Position numbers and translations under genes: made by a program
Shown here: positions 1-63,230 of the stretch, in pieces
How positions within the stretch are numbered: position 1 is the stretch's first letter
How the letters are laid out: each line of letters begins with the position of its first letter
NCBI GenBank assembly: GCA_025363475.1
Contig: JANYDS010000053.1
Location: 1-64,000 of the forward strand
Direction of reading: 5' to 3'
From: Terriglobia bacterium
GTDB lineage: Bacteria; Acidobacteriota; Terriglobia; Bryobacterales; Bryobacteraceae
Length of the DNA stretch: 64,000 nucleotides
The notes under the pieces: generated by a model
What the model saw: only the letters and a program-made list of their open reading frames with translations
The model's database searches: none
What the model was told of the DNA's origin: nothing

Positions 1-979
1 CCACCGCCACGGTCTTGCGGTCCGGTGAAAACTGCAGGTTGGCCATATCGCCCGCATCGCCCACCGTCCCGAGTCGCTTACCGGCACGATCCAGCCACGT
101 CAAACGCACGTCGTTCAAGGCGCCTTCCTGATATACCAGCACTCCGTTGGCGGAAACGGAGAATTCGCCCAAACCGTTGATGCCACGGCTTATCTGCACC
201 GACTCGGCAACGGGTACCGCTTCTCCTGTAAACGCCAGGCGCTTCCCGTCGAACGGCCTCGCTACCAGGGTGCTGCCGCGCATGAACAACAGATGTCCCT
301 GCGCGTAGATGGCAAAGCTGTTGGTGGTGTCGAGAAGCGTCCGGTCTTCCCCCGAGTCCAGCGAACCGAGCCGGATGTTTGGAGCGGGGCCACCAGCACC
401 AGCCAGGTAAAGAAAATGCCGCCCGTCCGGGAGGAACCAGGGAAACCGGTGGCTCGGCACCTTCCTATCAACGCGGGTAACCGGACGCGCGGTGCCGCCG
501 GATGCGGAGATCTGCTGTAGGTCGCCAGCGTTCGTCGGTGCAAAGACGATGACACCGTCCTGGTTCCACGTTCCACCGCGAGCGGCCGGCGCATCCGCAA
601 GCGCCGTCGCGGGACCGCCTGAGATATCCATCTTCTTCAGCTTTCCCGCGGCGAAAAAGCCGATCGTTTTGTTGTCCGGCGACCAGAAGGGAAAGCTCGC
701 ATTATCGGTCCCAGCCAGCGGTTGTGCGGTCAGGGAATCGAGCGGACGGAGCCAGAGCTGGGTCTTGCCGTCAGCCGAAATGGCCTGGAAGACGACTCGC
801 CTGCCATCGGGTGAAATGGCTGGGGGCGAAGCGTTTCCGGCGGGGAAGCTGCTCTTTTCCGGCGGCGCAAGGGTGAAACGCGTCAAAGGAATTTCCAGGG
901 GCTTCTCGCGGAAATGGACGAAAGCAAGCGCGACCGCAACGAGCGCGAAGACCGCCGCCGCAATCCAACCGATTCGACC
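1..979 (-). CDS. TM segment and PD40/TolB-like beta-propeller: C-terminal part of a frameshifted Ser/Thr kinase (partial)
   Basis: Translating the minus strand one base out of phase with the upstream kinase gives an open frame from about 979 to the window edge. It begins with a hydrophobic membrane segment (I-G-W-I-A-A-A-V-F-A-L-V-A-V-A-L), then a juxtamembrane stretch and repeated propeller blades of the type A-I-S-P-D-G-R, F-W-S-P-D-N-K and W-F-L-P-D-G-R-H-F. That is the standard C-terminal architecture of acidobacterial receptor kinases (kinase, single membrane helix, extracytoplasmic PD40 propeller). A TGA at 980-982 closes this frame just upstream and no good start codon follows it, so it is not an independent gene. 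The gene continues beyond position 1. Either a real inactivating frameshift or an assembly error would explain the split. Confidence 0.75.
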
Positions 980-1796
980 TCACCTGCTGAACTTCGACGG
1001 CGGCTCCTTCTTCCAGCAGGGCCATCGCATCGCCGATGTCCCGCAGCCGCTTCTTCGGGTCTTTCTCCAGACACCGTCGCAGCAACCGCCGAGTCTTCGC
1101 CGCCACCAAAGTCAGATCCGGTTCTTCCTTGAGAACCGCCGCCAGCGAATCCGTTATCGTGGCGCCTTCGAACAACCGCTTCCCTGTGAGCATTTCGTAA
1201 AGCACTACACCGAACGCCCAAATATCCGCGCGCTTATCAACAGCCAGACCCCGCGCCTGTTCAGGAGCCATATATCCCGCAGTGCCCAGAATCATGCCTG
1301 CGATTGACAGCATGGTGGGCGAATCCGGCCCATATTCGGCCGCCTCATTGGCCGCCTTCGCCAAACCGAAATCGAGAACCTTAACCGAGCCATCGGGCCG
1401 GATCTTAATATTCGCCGGTTTCAAATCACGATGAATGATGCCCTTCTCATGCGCCGCTTCCAGCGCATCGGCAATCTGTTTCGCGATCCCGAGAGCATCC
1501 TCCAAAGGAATCGGACCCTGTAAAATCCGTTCGGCCAGAGTCGGACCTTCTACCAACTCCATCACCAGATAATTCGGCCCGACATCAAACAACGTGCATA
1601 TATTCGGATGATTCAGCGCCGCAATGGCCCGCGCTTCGCGCTCAAAGCGATCCGTAAACTGCGCCGCCGAAACCTTGATCGCAACATCACGACCCAGTCG
1701 CGGATCACGGGCTTTCCACACTTCCCCCATCCCGCCTTTGCCCAGGGCAGAGACGACCTCATAGTGCCCGAGTTTCGCGCCAGGAGCGAGGGACAT
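771..1796 (-). CDS. Eukaryotic-like serine/threonine protein kinase, N-terminal kinase domain
   Basis: A complete Hanks-type kinase domain occupies residues 12 to about 270. The glycine loop L-G-K-G-G-M-G-E-V-W is at 18-27, the ATP-binding Lys41 sits in V-A-I-K, the catalytic loop H-R-D-L-K-P-A-N is at 122-129, D-F-G is at 142-144, and an activation segment ends in G-T-A-G-Y-M-A-P-E. All residues needed for phosphotransfer are present. From about residue 272 the frame turns into low-quality Arg/Cys-rich sequence, because the expected membrane helix and propeller continue in a neighbouring frame (positions 1-979). The family phosphorylates cytoplasmic proteins in response to an unknown outside signal. 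The STAS protein gene lies 42 bp upstream on the same strand, so the two may be cotranscribed, but a regulatory link is only inference. Confidence 0.9.
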   Translation of the reverse strand: MSLAPGAKLGHYEVVSALGKGGMGEVWKARDPRLGRDVAIKVSAAQFTDRFEREARAIAALNHPNICTLFDVGPNYLVMELVEGPTLAERILQGPIPLEDALGIAKQIADALEAAHEKGIIHRDLKPANIKIRPDGSVKVLDFGLAKAANEAAEYGPDSPTMLSIAGMILGTAGYMAPEQARGLAVDKRADIWAFGVVLYEMLTGKRLFEGATITDSLAAVLKEEPDLTLVAAKTRRLLRRCLEKDPKKRLRDIGDAMALLEEGAAVEVQQVRSNRLDCGGGLRARCGRACFRPFPREAPGNSFDAFHPCAAGKEQLPRRKRFAPSHFTRWQASRLPGHFG

Positions 1797-1838: not shown

Positions 1839-2183
1839 TTATGCGAAGCTTTGTACCGCGTGCGCCTCGTCTTCATGGACATCAAATACCGTATAAAGTT
1901 TAGTGATCTGCAACAGATCCTTCACACGTTTGGTCAGGCTCAACAACTTCATCGCGCCGCCCGCATTCGCTACCGAAGTGAAACCGGCCACCAGTTCGCC
2001 GATGCCGGAGCTGTCAATGTATGTAACATCGCCCAGATTCAGCAGAATATTCTTGTGTCCGCCGATCACCAGTTCGCGCATGGCATCGCGAAGGACGCTC
2101 GAGCCTTCGCCCAGAGTGATTCTACCGGAAACGTCAATCACCGTTACATTACCCGACTGGCGGGTATTTAGTTTCACGCTCAT
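1839..2183 (-). CDS. STAS-domain anti-sigma factor antagonist (SpoIIAA/RsbV-like)
   Basis: This 114-residue protein is a single STAS domain. The motif Y-I-D-S-S-G-I-G-E-L at residues 55-64 holds the conserved Ser58/Ser59, the phosphorylation site in SpoIIAA-type antagonists. Such proteins bind an anti-sigma kinase in a phosphorylation-dependent way and so release a sigma factor. No cognate RsbW-type kinase gene is adjacent; the next gene downstream is a Hanks-type Ser/Thr kinase, which could plausibly act on the serine, but nothing in the sequence proves it. Size and motif fit the family well. A purine-rich stretch about 13 bases before the ATG may serve as the ribosome binding site. Confidence 0.9.
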   Translation of the reverse strand: MSVKLNTRQSGNVTVIDVSGRITLGEGSSVLRDAMRELVIGGHKNILLNLGDVTYIDSSGIGELVAGFTSVANAGGAMKLLSLTKRVKDLLQITKLYTVFDVHEDEAHAVQSFA

Positions 2184-59882: not shown

Positions 59883-60452
59883 ATGCAGATGCTCGTGACT
59901 CCTGCAAATTCGGCTACAATTGTCGGCACTTGTGATGACCCGGTGGGTGCGCATGTTTCGCTACTTGAAGAAGAGGTAGTTGGGCTTTTCGACCGCCTGC
60001 GCAATCCCCTGCTCCGCTATTTGCTGTCGTTTCGGACTCCCATTCAGGATGCGGAAGAGATTGTCCAGGAAGTTTTCCTGGCGCTTTTCCGGCACCTTAG
60101 CCATGGAAGATCCCGCTCGAATCTACCGGCCTGGACGTTTACGGTGGCGCATAATCTGGCGTTGAAAAACCGGATGCGGGGCCAGCGGCAGGTGTCCGGT
60201 GACAAGTCGGACCGCGCCGATACGGCTCAAGGGCCGGAAGATTACGCAGTTGCCCGGCAGCGTCAGCAGCGGTTGATGGCCGTGGTTCGGGCTTTGCCGG
60301 AACAGGATCAGTGCTGCCTTTCATTGCGAGCGGAAGGGCTGCGGTATCGGGAGATCGCGGCGGTGCTGGGGATTTCGCTGGGCAGTGTGGCGAATTCGCT
60401 GGAGCGATCTTTGGCTCGCGTCGCGCGGGCGGATTCTCTGAGGAAGCCGTAA
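59883..60452 (+). CDS. ECF RNA polymerase sigma factor
   Basis: The 189-residue protein has sigma region 2 (residues about 35-100, with D-A-E-E-I-V-Q-E-V-F-L-A-L-F) and region 4 (residues about 125-180, L-P-E-Q-D-Q-C-C-L-S-L-R and L-R-Y-R-E-I-A-A-V-L-G-I-S with S-V-A-N-S-L), joined by a short linker. This is a group 4 (ECF) sigma factor. The anti-sigma gene overlaps its stop by one base, so they form a matched pair. Target promoters are unknown. Confidence 0.93.
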   Translation: MQMLVTPANSATIVGTCDDPVGAHVSLLEEEVVGLFDRLRNPLLRYLLSFRTPIQDAEEIVQEVFLALFRHLSHGRSRSNLPAWTFTVAHNLALKNRMRGQRQVSGDKSDRADTAQGPEDYAVARQRQQRLMAVVRALPEQDQCCLSLRAEGLRYREIAAVLGISLGSVANSLERSLARVARADSLRKP

Positions 60453-61192
60453 TGCAGAACGCTACTTCACATCTGAGCGATTCCGATTTGATTCTGGCAG
60501 CGGACGGAGAACTGGATTTCCGGCGTGCGGGACAGGTGCGGGAACATCTGGAGGCCTGCTGGGTTTGCCGCAGCCGGCAGGCGGAGTTGCAATGTGCGGT
60601 GGCGGAGTACGTGTCAGCTTACCGGGGAGAACTGGATGCAGCTTTGCCTGCCCCGGAGGGTCCCCGCGCGTTGCTGCGTTCGCAACTTTTGAGCGCGGCG
60701 GCAGCGGGCGGGGCGTCTAGCCATTGGAAGTGGGCAACCGTACTGGCGGCTGCGGCTGTGGTTATTTTTCTGGCCTGGCCCGGCGGGTCTGGCCGTGATC
60801 TTTCTGAACCGCGCAATTTTTTGACGCCAGGTGAGACGCGAACGACGGCGCTGGATGATGTGTGCCGTGTGCAGGATGGTGGTAACCGGATCGTACCTGT
60901 TTCATTGCGGGAGCAGGTGTTTCAGGAATACGGAATTTCCGGCGCGCATCCGAACTCGTATGAAGTGGATTATTTGATTACGCCCGCGCTGGGCGGCGCA
61001 GATAGTATTCGCAACCTGTGGCCGCAGCCGTATTCAACGGTTTGGAATGCCCACGTGAAAGATGAACTGGAAGACCAGTTGCACGAACTGGTTTGCGCGG
61101 GAAAAGTGGATCTGGGTACGGCGCAGCGGGAAATTGCTACCGACTGGATTGCTGCTTATAAAAAATACTTCCGAACCAACCGGCCACTCTAA
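60452..61192 (+). CDS. Membrane-bound zinc-finger anti-sigma factor
   Basis: The 246-residue protein starts with a zinc-binding anti-sigma domain (H-L-E-A-C-W-V-C-R, H32/C36/C39), a single membrane helix at about residues 93-110, and an exported domain of about 130 residues with no recognised family, including V-N-S-type Q-Y-S-T-V-W-N-A-H. Such proteins hold the partner ECF factor at the membrane until a signal releases it. The gene begins within the sigma gene's stop. Its 3' end overlaps the convergent gene by 4 bp. Confidence 0.88.
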   Translation: MQNATSHLSDSDLILAADGELDFRRAGQVREHLEACWVCRSRQAELQCAVAEYVSAYRGELDAALPAPEGPRALLRSQLLSAAAAGGASSHWKWATVLAAAAVVIFLAWPGGSGRDLSEPRNFLTPGETRTTALDDVCRVQDGGNRIVPVSLREQVFQEYGISGAHPNSYEVDYLITPALGGADSIRNLWPQPYSTVWNAHVKDELEDQLHELVCAGKVDLGTAQREIATDWIAAYKKYFRTNRPL

Positions 61193-61704
61193 TTGTTGAA
61201 GCTGGTGACAGCTTCCTGCTCATCCTGATAGGAATGAATCAGGGTGCTGATTCCCGTCATTTTGAGCAGTTTATCGATTTCAGGGGTGGCGTTCACCACT
61301 TTCAATGCGCCTTGATTCCGCACCAGGTGCGAATAGCAGCTCATCAACTGACCCAGCCCCGCACTATCAATTCTGGTAACGCGACTAAGGTCGATGATGA
61401 CCCGTGAATCGCGCTGCTCCAGGACTTCACGACGGAGTTCCTCCAACTCATGTGCCGAATGAGTTAACTCCGCGTTGGCCCTGAAACGTAAAACGGACAC
61501 GCCTCCGGTCTGATTCCAGGAAAGACTGGAAGCGCGCAGATCGGCGGCAAGCCGCTCGCTGACACGCAGTTCATCGAAGCACTCGTCACAGCCAAGGTAG
61601 TGAGCCTCAAACTCTTCGACAGCTTCGGCGTCGAGGGACCGCGAAAGATATTTCGCAATCAAACCCTCCCGCTCTATCGTTTCCTTCTTGCAGACCATGT
61701 CCAT
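61189..61704 (-). CDS. Fusion of a zinc-finger anti-sigma-like domain and a STAS domain
   Basis: The 171-residue cytosolic protein begins with a zinc anti-sigma-like helix pair with the H-Y-L-G-C-D-E-C signature (H35, C39, C42), continues with a helical linker, and ends in a STAS domain with V-T-R-I-D-S-A-G-L-G-Q-L, whose Ser114 is at the usual phosphorylation position. There is no membrane helix. This places a sigma-binding module and an antagonist-type module in one chain. It starts five bases after the stop of the ECF sigma gene upstream, so they are a unit. Whether the protein acts as anti-sigma, antagonist, or switch is unknown. Confidence 0.85.
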   Translation of the reverse strand: MDMVCKKETIEREGLIAKYLSRSLDAEAVEEFEAHYLGCDECFDELRVSERLAADLRASSLSWNQTGGVSVLRFRANAELTHSAHELEELRREVLEQRDSRVIIDLSRVTRIDSAGLGQLMSCYSHLVRNQGALKVVNATPEIDKLLKMTGISTLIHSYQDEQEAVTSFNN

Positions 61705-61708
61705 TTAT

Positions 61709-62239
61709 CTAGTGCTCACTCACGGCAGTTCGTTTCATTTCGGTTCCGTATACACGCCGGAACCGTTCTTTGGCTCGAAATAAAACGACGCGGAATTGAG
61801 CATCACTCATGCTCCATTCCTTACAGATATCTTCTTTCTCTTTTCCGTCGAGGTAGAGAGCCCTGAGGATGGTGCGGTCCCGTTCGGCCAGTTCGGCGAG
61901 GCCTGTCTCAATGGAATCGCGCATTTCGAGGATTTCGGCTTCGGGACGGATGCCGATGTCAGGGATGGGGATGTCCGGATCTGCCAGCGGTTCGCGGCGG
62001 GAACGACGACGGTATTCGAGGATGACGTTGCGGCAGACGCCGTTCAGGAACGCGCCCACCTCTTCGGTGTTGCGGATCTGATTGCGCTGTTCGGCGCGGA
62101 GGAAACGAACGATGCTTTCCTGAACCAAATCGTCGACATCGGCGCAGTTGTGACCGACATGATAGAGAACCTTGTAACGCAGTTTGAGCCGCAGCCGTTC
62201 GATGGAGTGTTCGGGCGGCGCTGGCGCGGTGAGGTCCAT
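61709..62239 (-). CDS. ECF RNA polymerase sigma factor, partner of the zinc-finger-STAS protein
   Basis: The 176-residue sigma factor has region 2 with D-V-D-D-L-V-Q-E-S-I-V-R-F and region 4 with D-R-T-I-L-R-A-L-Y-L-D-G and I-C-K-E-W-S-M-S-D-A-Q-F-R. The R-R-R-S-R-R linker after region 2 is long and basic. It belongs to the ECF/group 4 class but differs clearly from the sigma factor at 59.9 kb. The start ATG at 62239 has no strong Shine-Dalgarno. The zinc-ribbon gene 40 bp upstream may be in the same transcript. Confidence 0.9.
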   Translation of the reverse strand: MDLTAPAPPEHSIERLRLKLRYKVLYHVGHNCADVDDLVQESIVRFLRAEQRNQIRNTEEVGAFLNGVCRNVILEYRRRSRREPLADPDIPIPDIGIRPEAEILEMRDSIETGLAELAERDRTILRALYLDGKEKEDICKEWSMSDAQFRVVLFRAKERFRRVYGTEMKRTAVSEH

Positions 62240-62279
62240 TTAAGCGGGTTTGAAGACTTCCGGAGTTGCCGGGGAAATT

Positions 62280-62585
62280 CTAACCGGGGCTACCTGCGCG
62301 GCCGTCGCGAAAACAATCCCGACAGAGCACCGGACGGCCCTGCGTGGGGCGGAAAGGAACGGTAGTCTCGCGGCCGCACTGAGAACATACAGTCGAAGTT
62401 TCGACCCTTCCGGCGGCGCGATTGCGATCCGGAGAGCCTGTTTGACGCTTCGATTTACATGCTTTGCAACGCCGCGGTTCATTACTAAAACCTTTTTCGT
62501 TATGGAACTGCTGCTCGCCTGCGGTGAAGACAAAATCGGCTCCACAATCGGCACATTTTAAAAGCCTGTCCTGAAATTCCGGCAT
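62280..62585 (-). CDS. Zinc-ribbon protein with CxxC-x17-CxxC domain
   Basis: The 101-residue protein has four C-x-x-C pairs: C11/C14 and C40/C43 form one zinc ribbon, and C-S-Q-C plus C-R-D-C 17 residues apart form the second. Composition between them is Arg/Gly-rich. Proteins of this type are common near ribosomal or RNA-related genes in Acidobacteriota and are otherwise uncharacterised. The ATG at 62585 was preferred because M-P-E-F-Q-D-R-L-L-K-C is the usual start. It follows the rpsU terminator. Confidence 0.8.
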   Translation of the reverse strand: MPEFQDRLLKCADCGADFVFTAGEQQFHNEKGFSNEPRRCKACKSKRQTGSPDRNRAAGRVETSTVCSQCGRETTVPFRPTQGRPVLCRDCFRDGRAGSPG

Positions 62586-62602
62586 GGTTGGCACCCGCAA
62601 GG

Positions 62603-62648: not shown

Positions 62649-62846
62649 TTATTCGACTTCCCGGCGACTCTTCTTCCGGTTCCGTTTACGGGCCAGTGCC
62701 TGCTTCACGCGAAGCTTCTCACCCGGTTTCAGGTAGAAGGAATGCCTCTTGACCTCTTTAATGATGTCTTCCTGCTGCACTTTGCGCTTGAAGCGGCGCA
62801 ATGCGTTTTCCAGGGTTTCACCGTCCTGGAGTCTTACTTCAGCCAA
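62649..62846 (-). CDS. rpsU: 30S ribosomal protein bS21
   Basis: The 65-residue basic protein matches bS21 (A-E-V-R-L-Q-D-G-E-T-L-E-N-A-L-R-R-F-K-R-K-V, then R-K-R-N-R-K-K-S-R-R near the end), a small-subunit protein involved in initiation. The start is the TTG at 62846, with a strong GGAGGTG 7-9 bases upstream; the frame is open much further upstream but without protein-like content. The stop is followed by a terminator, so it is a single-gene unit. Confidence 0.95.
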   Translation of the reverse strand: MAEVRLQDGETLENALRRFKRKVQQEDIIKEVKRHSFYLKPGEKLRVKQALARKRNRKKSRREVE

Positions 62847-63230
62847 TTTAAAAACACCTCCAACCTGATCGCGAATTTGCTTTAGCTTGTGAGGGCTAAA
62901 ACACTGATAAATTTGGGATTTAGCAGGTTTTTCTGCTGCCGTATGGGAGCGGGATTGCAGCTCAACCGATACGGGTCCGGGCGCAACTTGGAGCGGCGGA
63001 TTCCGAAGAACCTCTATGCTAGCACACATAAGTCACTGGAACTAAACGAAAATCGTGAGACGGGCTGTGGATCGAGGGTCTGGTCTTTGCGGTAAGACTT
63101 GAGCAGAATGCCTCGTCTTCAGTGGTCAGAATTGACAGGCGGCAGATCGCCGGGCCGGTCCATCCGAACCTGGTAAATCAGTGCCATCCCCAAATGGTCA
63201 CCACGATTCCCGCGCCAGAACGCCCGACAG

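Follow-up and report, generated by a model that had tools for sequence, protein, structure and literature searches.

A zinc anti-sigma domain joined to a STAS domain in one soluble protein encoded beside an ECF sigma factor in Acidobacteriota

The window analysed here is a stretch of 64,000 nucleotides (positions 1 to 64,000 of contig JANYDS010000053.1, assembly GCA_025363475.1) from a Terriglobia bacterium of the phylum Acidobacteriota. Towards its right end it encodes a protein of 171 residues that joins an N-terminal three-helix zinc anti-sigma (ZAS) domain to a C-terminal STAS domain of the SpoIIAA/RsbV type, and the gene follows that of an extracytoplasmic function (ECF) sigma factor with only four bases between the sigma stop and the fusion start. 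Zinc domains of this kind keep ECF sigma factors silent, and STAS domains of this kind are under the control of kinases, so that two signalling schemes which are as a rule separate seem to be combined here. This pair of genes is present in 26 genomes, and in the sigma tree the fusion-linked sigma factors are separated from those that are accompanied by membrane-type ZAS proteins. The best explanation, to which we give an even chance, is that the protein is a cytoplasmic anti-sigma factor with the STAS domain as its input, operated through a partner that acts in trans. An earlier note on this DNA, drawn from its letters and open reading frames (ORFs), had described the fusion, the missing membrane anchor and the adjoining ECF sigma gene, and all three are borne out below. 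Its further idea of a "self-contained partner switch" is not supported, because a partner switch of the RsbV/RsbW type needs a HATPase kinase and a phosphatase and neither domain is found in the chain with Pfam or NCBIfam.

Two domains in one soluble chain

The STAS half is recognised by its sequence as well as by its modelled structure. Pfam PF01740 covers residues 65-165 (E 2.5e-16), TIGR00377 scores just below its cut-off (52.7 against 53.45 bits), and SpoIIAA (1th8) is matched by sequence at 1.7e-10. Foldseek returned SpoIIAA from its complex with SpoIIAB (1th8_B) and RsbV from its complex with RsbW at 1.2e-8 and 3.9e-7, respectively, and VIA-align places the STAS fold near RsbS too (6jhk, Z 14.6; 3zxn, Z 13.6), though SpoIIAA is resembled at least as well. 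Ser114 aligns with the serine of SpoIIAA in the motif MDSSGLG, a position that is alanine in PDB sequence 1tid (MDASGLG) and that we take to be Ser58, the phosphorylated residue of SpoIIAA. The phospho-site motif IDS[AST]G is present in all 26 fusions and lies among the best conserved stretches of the protein. With an aspartate followed by serine in the pattern D-S-x-G-L, the domain is predicted to be of the phosphorylatable SpoIIAA/RsbV type.

The zinc half stays below the curated profile thresholds: its zf-HC2 match (E 0.0023, 18.4 bits) does not reach the Pfam cut-off of 22.2 bits, and NCBIfam yields only weak anti-sigma matches, among them an RsrA model at E 0.023, far below its cut-off. 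Profile searches, which the earlier note had suggested for both domains, were thus clear for STAS and subthreshold for zf-HC2, and the call of the zinc domain rests instead on a profile match to RslA, on structural matches and on conservation. Run against solved structures, the family's zinc-domain profile matched RslA (3hug) at E 5.7e-5 and, insignificantly, DdvA (8rlz) at E 0.37. The VIA-align matches listed for the whole model were taken up by STAS proteins and so bear on that half alone; when the zinc domain was modelled and searched by itself, the structural matches were led by RslA, ChrR and RsiW. The seven best Foldseek matches are all RslA chains, and ChrR (root-mean-square deviation 1.1 over 45 columns) and RsiW are also among the 29 matches listed, with single E-values that are insignificant (best 0.67) for this helical domain of 58 residues. 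VIA-align superposes RsiW over 51 residues (Z 5.9, root-mean-square deviation 1.6), a Z that, being under 8, may merely reflect a common arrangement.

The full model and that of the zinc domain alone (mean predicted local distance difference test scores of 86.3 and 85.6) place the same three helices, with the second ending at residue 36 or 38. In the full model, with a predicted template-modelling score of 0.66, helix 3 ends at residue 57 and STAS strand 1 begins at 61. Since no helix 4 is seen, we file the protein as a ZAS-domain/STAS fusion and not as a full class I (ASDI) member. The features of the zinc type of class I that are present comprise the three-helix bundle, the zinc motif with its upstream ligand and the gene adjoining an ECF sigma factor, and zinc binding is predicted from these residues. 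The probable fourth ligand, Cys5, was absent from the earlier note; a cysteine also stands at the equivalent position (C3) in an ordinary ZAS protein from another phylum (L069). That the zinc motif is a chance pattern is ruled out by its retention in 25 of 26 homologues.

The protein has no membrane anchor: its highest Kyte-Doolittle mean over 19 residues is 0.66, and these maxima range from 0.66 to 1.2 in the nine fusions scored, as against 1.64-2.75 in eight membrane-type ZAS proteins. The neighbouring sigma factor matches Sigma70_r2 (E 7.6e-9) and TIGR02937 above their cut-offs and Sigma70_r4_2 (E 1.1e-4) below its own.

Distribution, conservation and phylogeny of the gene pair

The pair occurs in all 19 genomes of the window's genus and in 7 others (G037, G506, G541, G551, G563, G572 and G621), which together span three families of one Acidobacteriota class, and all 26 fusions examined adjoin an ECF sigma gene. 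The survey of Acidobacteriota neighbourhoods that the earlier note had called for has found sigma factor and fusion inherited together. An assembly artefact is ruled out by the occurrence of the fusion in 26 different genomes. Conservation of the zinc motif among homologues, the point on which the earlier note had let its proposal stand or fall, holds with one exception: 25 of the 26 fusions retain H35, C39 and C42, and equally many have a Cys or His ligand near the N-terminus, whereas every zinc ligand is gone from the fusion of G563, a protein of 179 residues that is otherwise intact and has retained its sigma gene.

Within the samples searched, the fusion is found only in this one class. 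Among the matches listed for a phylum-wide search of 396 genomes, the window's own protein is the sole full-length one and the next best cover STAS alone, while a draw of 399 genomes from the class contains 14 with a match at an E of 1e-25 or below, 12 of them in the genus (the window's own included) and the others G506 and G621. None of 21 STAS-only ORFs, among the ORFs of 185 sequences examined, has H-x3-C-x2-C upstream of STAS. A contig scan with two short peptides, which misses diverged members such as that of G621, returned 18 genus members, the ordinary ZAS protein L069 and a further contig (L068) that, judged by its length, is the same as the one in G551 and was counted once. These genome draws are only samples, and they would not reveal a fusion from another phylum whose zinc domain has diverged.

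A search with the sigma factor matched 170 of 200 genomes and gave 30 loci. Outside the genus and G037 there are 14 of these, of which 5 are accompanied by the fusion, 6 by a ZAS protein with a hydrophobic segment and 3 by no clear partner, counts that cover the loci examined among the sigma matches. A 100/100 branch of the sigma tree separates the 26 fusion-linked sigma factors from the 6 that are linked to membrane-type ZAS proteins. The same split had 96/88 support in a first tree of 36 rows that included two very long branches, L069 and L121, which the second tree omits; no fusion or zinc protein adjoins the sigma gene of L121. In six of the eight tree rows nearest to the fusion clade, the place downstream of the sigma gene is taken by a ZAS protein that contains a hydrophobic segment, and the partner of the other two (L122 and L126) is unclear, so that they are unlabelled in the tree. 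The zinc domains of fusions and membrane-type ZAS proteins align, with Tyr, Glu, His, Cys and Cys invariant in 11 rows. It appears that the membrane part of a ZAS ancestor was exchanged for STAS, a direction that we infer because the root of the sigma tree is its midpoint, and one that agrees with the available text of PMC8103513, according to which soluble anti-sigma factors arose from membrane-anchored ones.

Possible mechanism, candidate partners and alternatives

The fusion is expected to work like a soluble anti-sigma factor. In the explanation that we favour, the zinc-held bundle of residues 1-58 would bind the sigma factor, most likely at its -35-binding region 4, and keep it off RNA polymerase; a grip on region 4 is the natural guess by analogy to RslA, which according to the title of 3hug was solved with the -35-binding domain of its sigma factor. 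The STAS domain of residues 59-171 would occupy the place of the membrane segment and of what follows it in the neighbouring ZAS proteins, and would act as the input. Its state, which may depend on the addition and removal of a phosphate at Ser114 or on a HATPase_c_2 (RsbW-type) protein that docks onto it in trans, would decide whether the zinc domain keeps or releases the sigma factor. A serine kinase or phosphatase in trans is the probable controller. Because G563 has lost every ligand and yet kept fusion and sigma factor, zinc seems to be mainly structural, and since the zinc site, unlike the phospho-site, is not strictly kept, STAS is the most likely entry point of the signal. The chain has a likely capture domain and a switchable input domain, and the switch needs a second protein. 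More tentatively, at somewhat less than an even chance, we propose that a kinase-controlled STAS domain acts in cis on the zinc anti-sigma domain, so that an ECF factor which lacks a membrane sensor would come under the control of a cytoplasmic partner-switch network.

The zinc site could alternatively be the sensor itself, in the manner of RsrA or ChrR: thiol oxidation at the Cys/His site, or a response to metal, would free the sigma factor, and STAS would merely dimerise or stabilise the protein. Its solubility and the zinc site of H-x3-C-x2-C and a fourth ligand, shared by 25 of 26 members, are compatible with such a sensor, which we nevertheless regard as unlikely, given that six of the 26 fusions use His as their N-terminal ligand, that G563 is without any ligand while its fusion and sigma factor persist, and that the phospho-site, which a passive STAS domain would not need, is kept in all 26. 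A comparison in its favour, which also weighs against STAS as the input, comes from the available part of PMC7406223, where about 72% of soluble class I anti-sigma factors bear a zinc motif that the authors link to cytoplasmic redox sensing.

Kinase input to the fusion is plausible, though no single kinase is tied to it. We compared neighbourhoods with five queries, three of them for HATPase and one each for SpoIIE and PP2C, over up to 8 kb on each side of the pair; the reach was less where a contig is short and towards the right edge of the window, and the contig of G037 is too short for a verdict. Among the seven distant pairs, genes for an RsbW-type and a STAS protein are near two, at 0.2-5 kb: they are divergent from the sigma gene in G506 (Pfam HATPase_c_2 9e-22) and about 5 kb from the pair in G541. 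A PP2C gene adjoins the sigma gene in G572, and a lone STAS gene is found downstream in G621. The window's genome has nine HATPase_c_2 matches, three of them over the cut-off and two of these in RsbW-like proteins, one whose gene seems to share an operon with SpoIIE and STAS genes (L130) and the other a response-regulator/HATPase protein with a receiver domain (L131), and it encodes eight SpoIIE-type phosphatases. A stand-alone RsbW-type kinase has orthologues in 18 of the 19 genus genomes; by coordinates, each of the 18 has a HATPase_c_2 match with a STAS match no more than 200 bases away, and in five genomes examined the kinase adjoins an orthologue of the window's stand-alone STAS gene.

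That STAS gene (positions 1839-2183, minus strand) itself adjoins an ORF (771-1796, minus strand) that reads by eye as a Ser/Thr protein kinase. Its orthologues in five other genus genomes, which are 74-81% identical, are next to the RsbW-type kinase.

Several observations weigh against the scheme of a trans-acting partner and a STAS input. In the 19 genus genomes the five queries found no kinase or phosphatase gene beside the pair, save for one weak HATPase match about 6 kb off in G018. L130 and L131 are not supported as genus-wide partners, as each is found in 4 of 19 genomes (E up to 1e-20), and the kinase shared by the 18 genomes is absent from the window's own and can therefore not be the sole required partner. 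HATPase_c_2 exceeds its cut-off in all 19 genus genomes, but also in 10 of 14 control genomes, and so carries little weight alone. The kinase link is thus circumstantial. Fusion and sigma distances are correlated (r 0.93 for the 26 pairs together and 0.71 for those of the genus, each reached in none of 5000 permutations), which speaks in favour of the scheme in that the two genes have diverged together, but such a correlation is expected for linked genes, whether or not their products bind. Finally, the monomer model has no counterpart of the fourth helix of class I anti-sigma factors and leaves only three residues between helix 3 and STAS. In the available text of PMC7406223, these factors contact sigma region 4 through three helices, and a linker leads on to the fourth, which grips region 2. 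Judging by the model, sigma inhibition may be weak or may depend on the STAS domain, a helix of which could stand in for helix 4 in the complex with the sigma factor.

This last point also opens the way to explanations in which the STAS domain is not, or not in this manner, the switch. STAS might be part of the grip itself and replace helix 4 on sigma region 2, with the signal arriving otherwise, for example by proteolysis or as a ligand in the STAS pocket. The short connection in the model would suit this arrangement, and STAS distances track those of the sigma factor at least as well as the distances of the zinc domain do (r 0.93 against 0.89). However, the Ser114 motif, at which SpoIIAA-type proteins meet their kinase, is among the best conserved stretches, and we regard such a role as improbable; by eye the sequences of the membrane-type ZAS neighbours have no obvious fourth helix either, so that its absence may be no loss. 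We think equally little of the possibility that the fusion is an adaptor or activator, whose truncated zinc domain would tether the sigma factor to a STAS-based complex, either with a kinase or stressosome-like, and leave RNA polymerase unblocked. The model does miss the helix that completes the dual grip described in the available text of PMC7406223, the STAS fold has the resemblance to RsbS noted above, to which SpoIIAA is at least equal, and a housekeeping-like TAGAAT box means that the sigma gene may escape strict self-control. On the other side, the order of sigma factor and then ZAS is that of ordinary sigma/anti-sigma pairs, and the relatives of the fusion look like ordinary ZAS proteins.

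Gene neighbourhood, related systems and implications

The genes for rpsU, a zf_Tbcl protein, the ECF sigma factor and the fusion form a codirectional series on the minus strand (see table). The rpsU/zf_Tbcl neighbourhood is common in the genus and was absent from the earlier note; with these genes ahead of it, sigma expression may be tied to that of ribosomal protein S21. The exact TAGAAT sequence occurs in 11 of 19 genus upstream regions of 110 bases each, compared to a mean of 0.21 in shuffles that overstate the significance because the upstream sequences are related. A conserved -35 partner was not seen in the upstream alignment, which was inspected by eye only, and the box looks like a housekeeping -10 element rather than a sign of ECF self-regulation.

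On the plus strand, a second ECF sigma/ZAS pair (59883-61192) runs towards the fusion gene, and the two ends overlap by four bases; its ZAS protein contains a hydrophobic segment and is thus of the membrane type, and a homologous pair is found near the fusion in G011 (L044:4380-5688). A gene for a large outer-membrane beta-barrel protein (OMP_b-brl_4), homologous among G621, G563 and G551, points away from the sigma gene in each of these three genomes and may be a target of the sigma factor there. Between the two genes lies a small ORF of 98-117 residues in each case, and two of these ORFs have no Pfam match and no detectable similarity to each other or to the third.

Features of the sigma/fusion locus and of related loci in other genomes
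Feature	Position	Strand	Basis or remark
ZAS-STAS fusion protein, 171 residues, soluble	61189..61704	-	ORF, Pfam, conservation, structure model, hydropathy
Three-helix zinc anti-sigma (zf-HC2-like) domain, residues 1-58	61531..61704	-	helices 9-20, 26-36, 40-57; profile and model
Cys5, probable fourth zinc ligand	61690..61692	-	Cys 19/26, His 6/26, none 1/26
H35-x3-C39-x2-C42 zinc motif	61579..61602	-	kept in 25/26 homologues
STAS domain, SpoIIAA/RsbV type, residues 59-171	61192..61530	-	Pfam, Foldseek, VIA-align, PDB sequence match
Ser114 in IDSAGLG	61363..61365	-	kept 26/26; aligned with SpoIIAA serine
ECF sigma factor, 176 residues, cognate partner by gene order	61709..62239	-	ORF, Pfam, NCBIfam, sigma tree
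TAGAAT box, possible housekeeping-type -10 element	62277..62282	-	43 bases upstream of sigma start
zf_Tbcl, double treble-clef zinc-finger protein	62280..62600	-	Pfam 3.4e-21; adjoins sigma gene in 14/19 genus genomes
rpsU (ribosomal protein S21)	62649..63029	-	Pfam 3e-15; upstream in 13/19 genus genomes
Zinc-less fusion of G563	L116:2026-2565	+	all ligands replaced
OMP_b-brl_4 genes	L151:2553-6115, L155:3152-6852, L156:100-3712		in G621, G563, G551

Both halves of the fusion have known counterparts. ChrR of Rhodobacter sphaeroides, RsrA, RslA and RsiW share with it the N-terminal three-helix zinc domain, the H-x3-C-x2-C motif with an N-terminal ligand and a gene adjoining that of an ECF sigma factor, but differ in that the C-terminal domain here is STAS and no helix 4 is seen in the model. 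The C-terminal domain of ChrR is a cupin, and RslA is annotated as "probable conserved membrane protein". The STAS fold and the Ser114 motif are those of RsbV and SpoIIAA, the antagonists of the RsbW and SpoIIAB kinases, yet these consist of STAS alone and release SigB or SigF from the kinase, whereas here STAS is fused to a zinc domain beside an ECF sigma factor, with no kinase linked to it in the genus.

The closest published one-chain design that we found is SipA of Actinoplanes missouriensis, which in the available text of PMC10733313 also combines anti-sigma and STAS antagonist domains for one particular sigma factor, sigma-SsdA. Its anti-sigma domain is described there as an RsbW-like ATPase that is C-terminal to STAS, and its sigma factor as one of the SigB/F/G type with a STAS domain of its own; the fusion described here has an N-terminal zinc-type domain, an ECF sigma factor and, by Pfam and NCBIfam, no HATPase domain in the chain. 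ECF sigma factors with soluble anti-sigma factors are represented in the accessible part of PMC8999054 by the EcfG/NepR/PhyR partner switch, in which a sigma-mimicking response regulator and not STAS is the switch, and by ECF270 and ECF271, whose soluble ZAS partners have a mechanism given there as unknown; the example of ECF270 is from an Acidobacteria bacterium, and the likeness is one of description only. For non-canonical ECF factors, the same text lists conformational change, partner switching (NepR/PhyR) and mechanosensing as modes of soluble anti-sigma factors, and the word STAS is absent from it. The available portion of a review of STAS-only proteins (PMC8256260) similarly contains neither zinc nor ECF, while CapK/CapS, as presented in the accessible text of PMC13373217, is another reuse of a kinase/STAS pair. 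No zinc anti-sigma/STAS fusion is among the open-literature matches listed, a scope outside which the main ECF classification paper and its supplements fall, so that the fusion may be tabulated there.

If the more tentative proposal of control in cis is true, the two main bacterial anti-sigma schemes, the capture of ECF factors by a zinc domain and phosphorylation in the manner of RsbW and STAS, would be wired together in 171 residues. The fusion would also reveal how ECF sigma factors may pass directly, in evolution, from membrane sensing to cytoplasmic phospho-signalling, with zinc domain and sigma factor kept and the membrane part replaced by STAS. As a small natural system that includes a zinc-less relative, the family would allow the structural role of zinc in anti-sigma factors to be separated from a sensory one, and it lets one ask whether helix 4 is needed at all.

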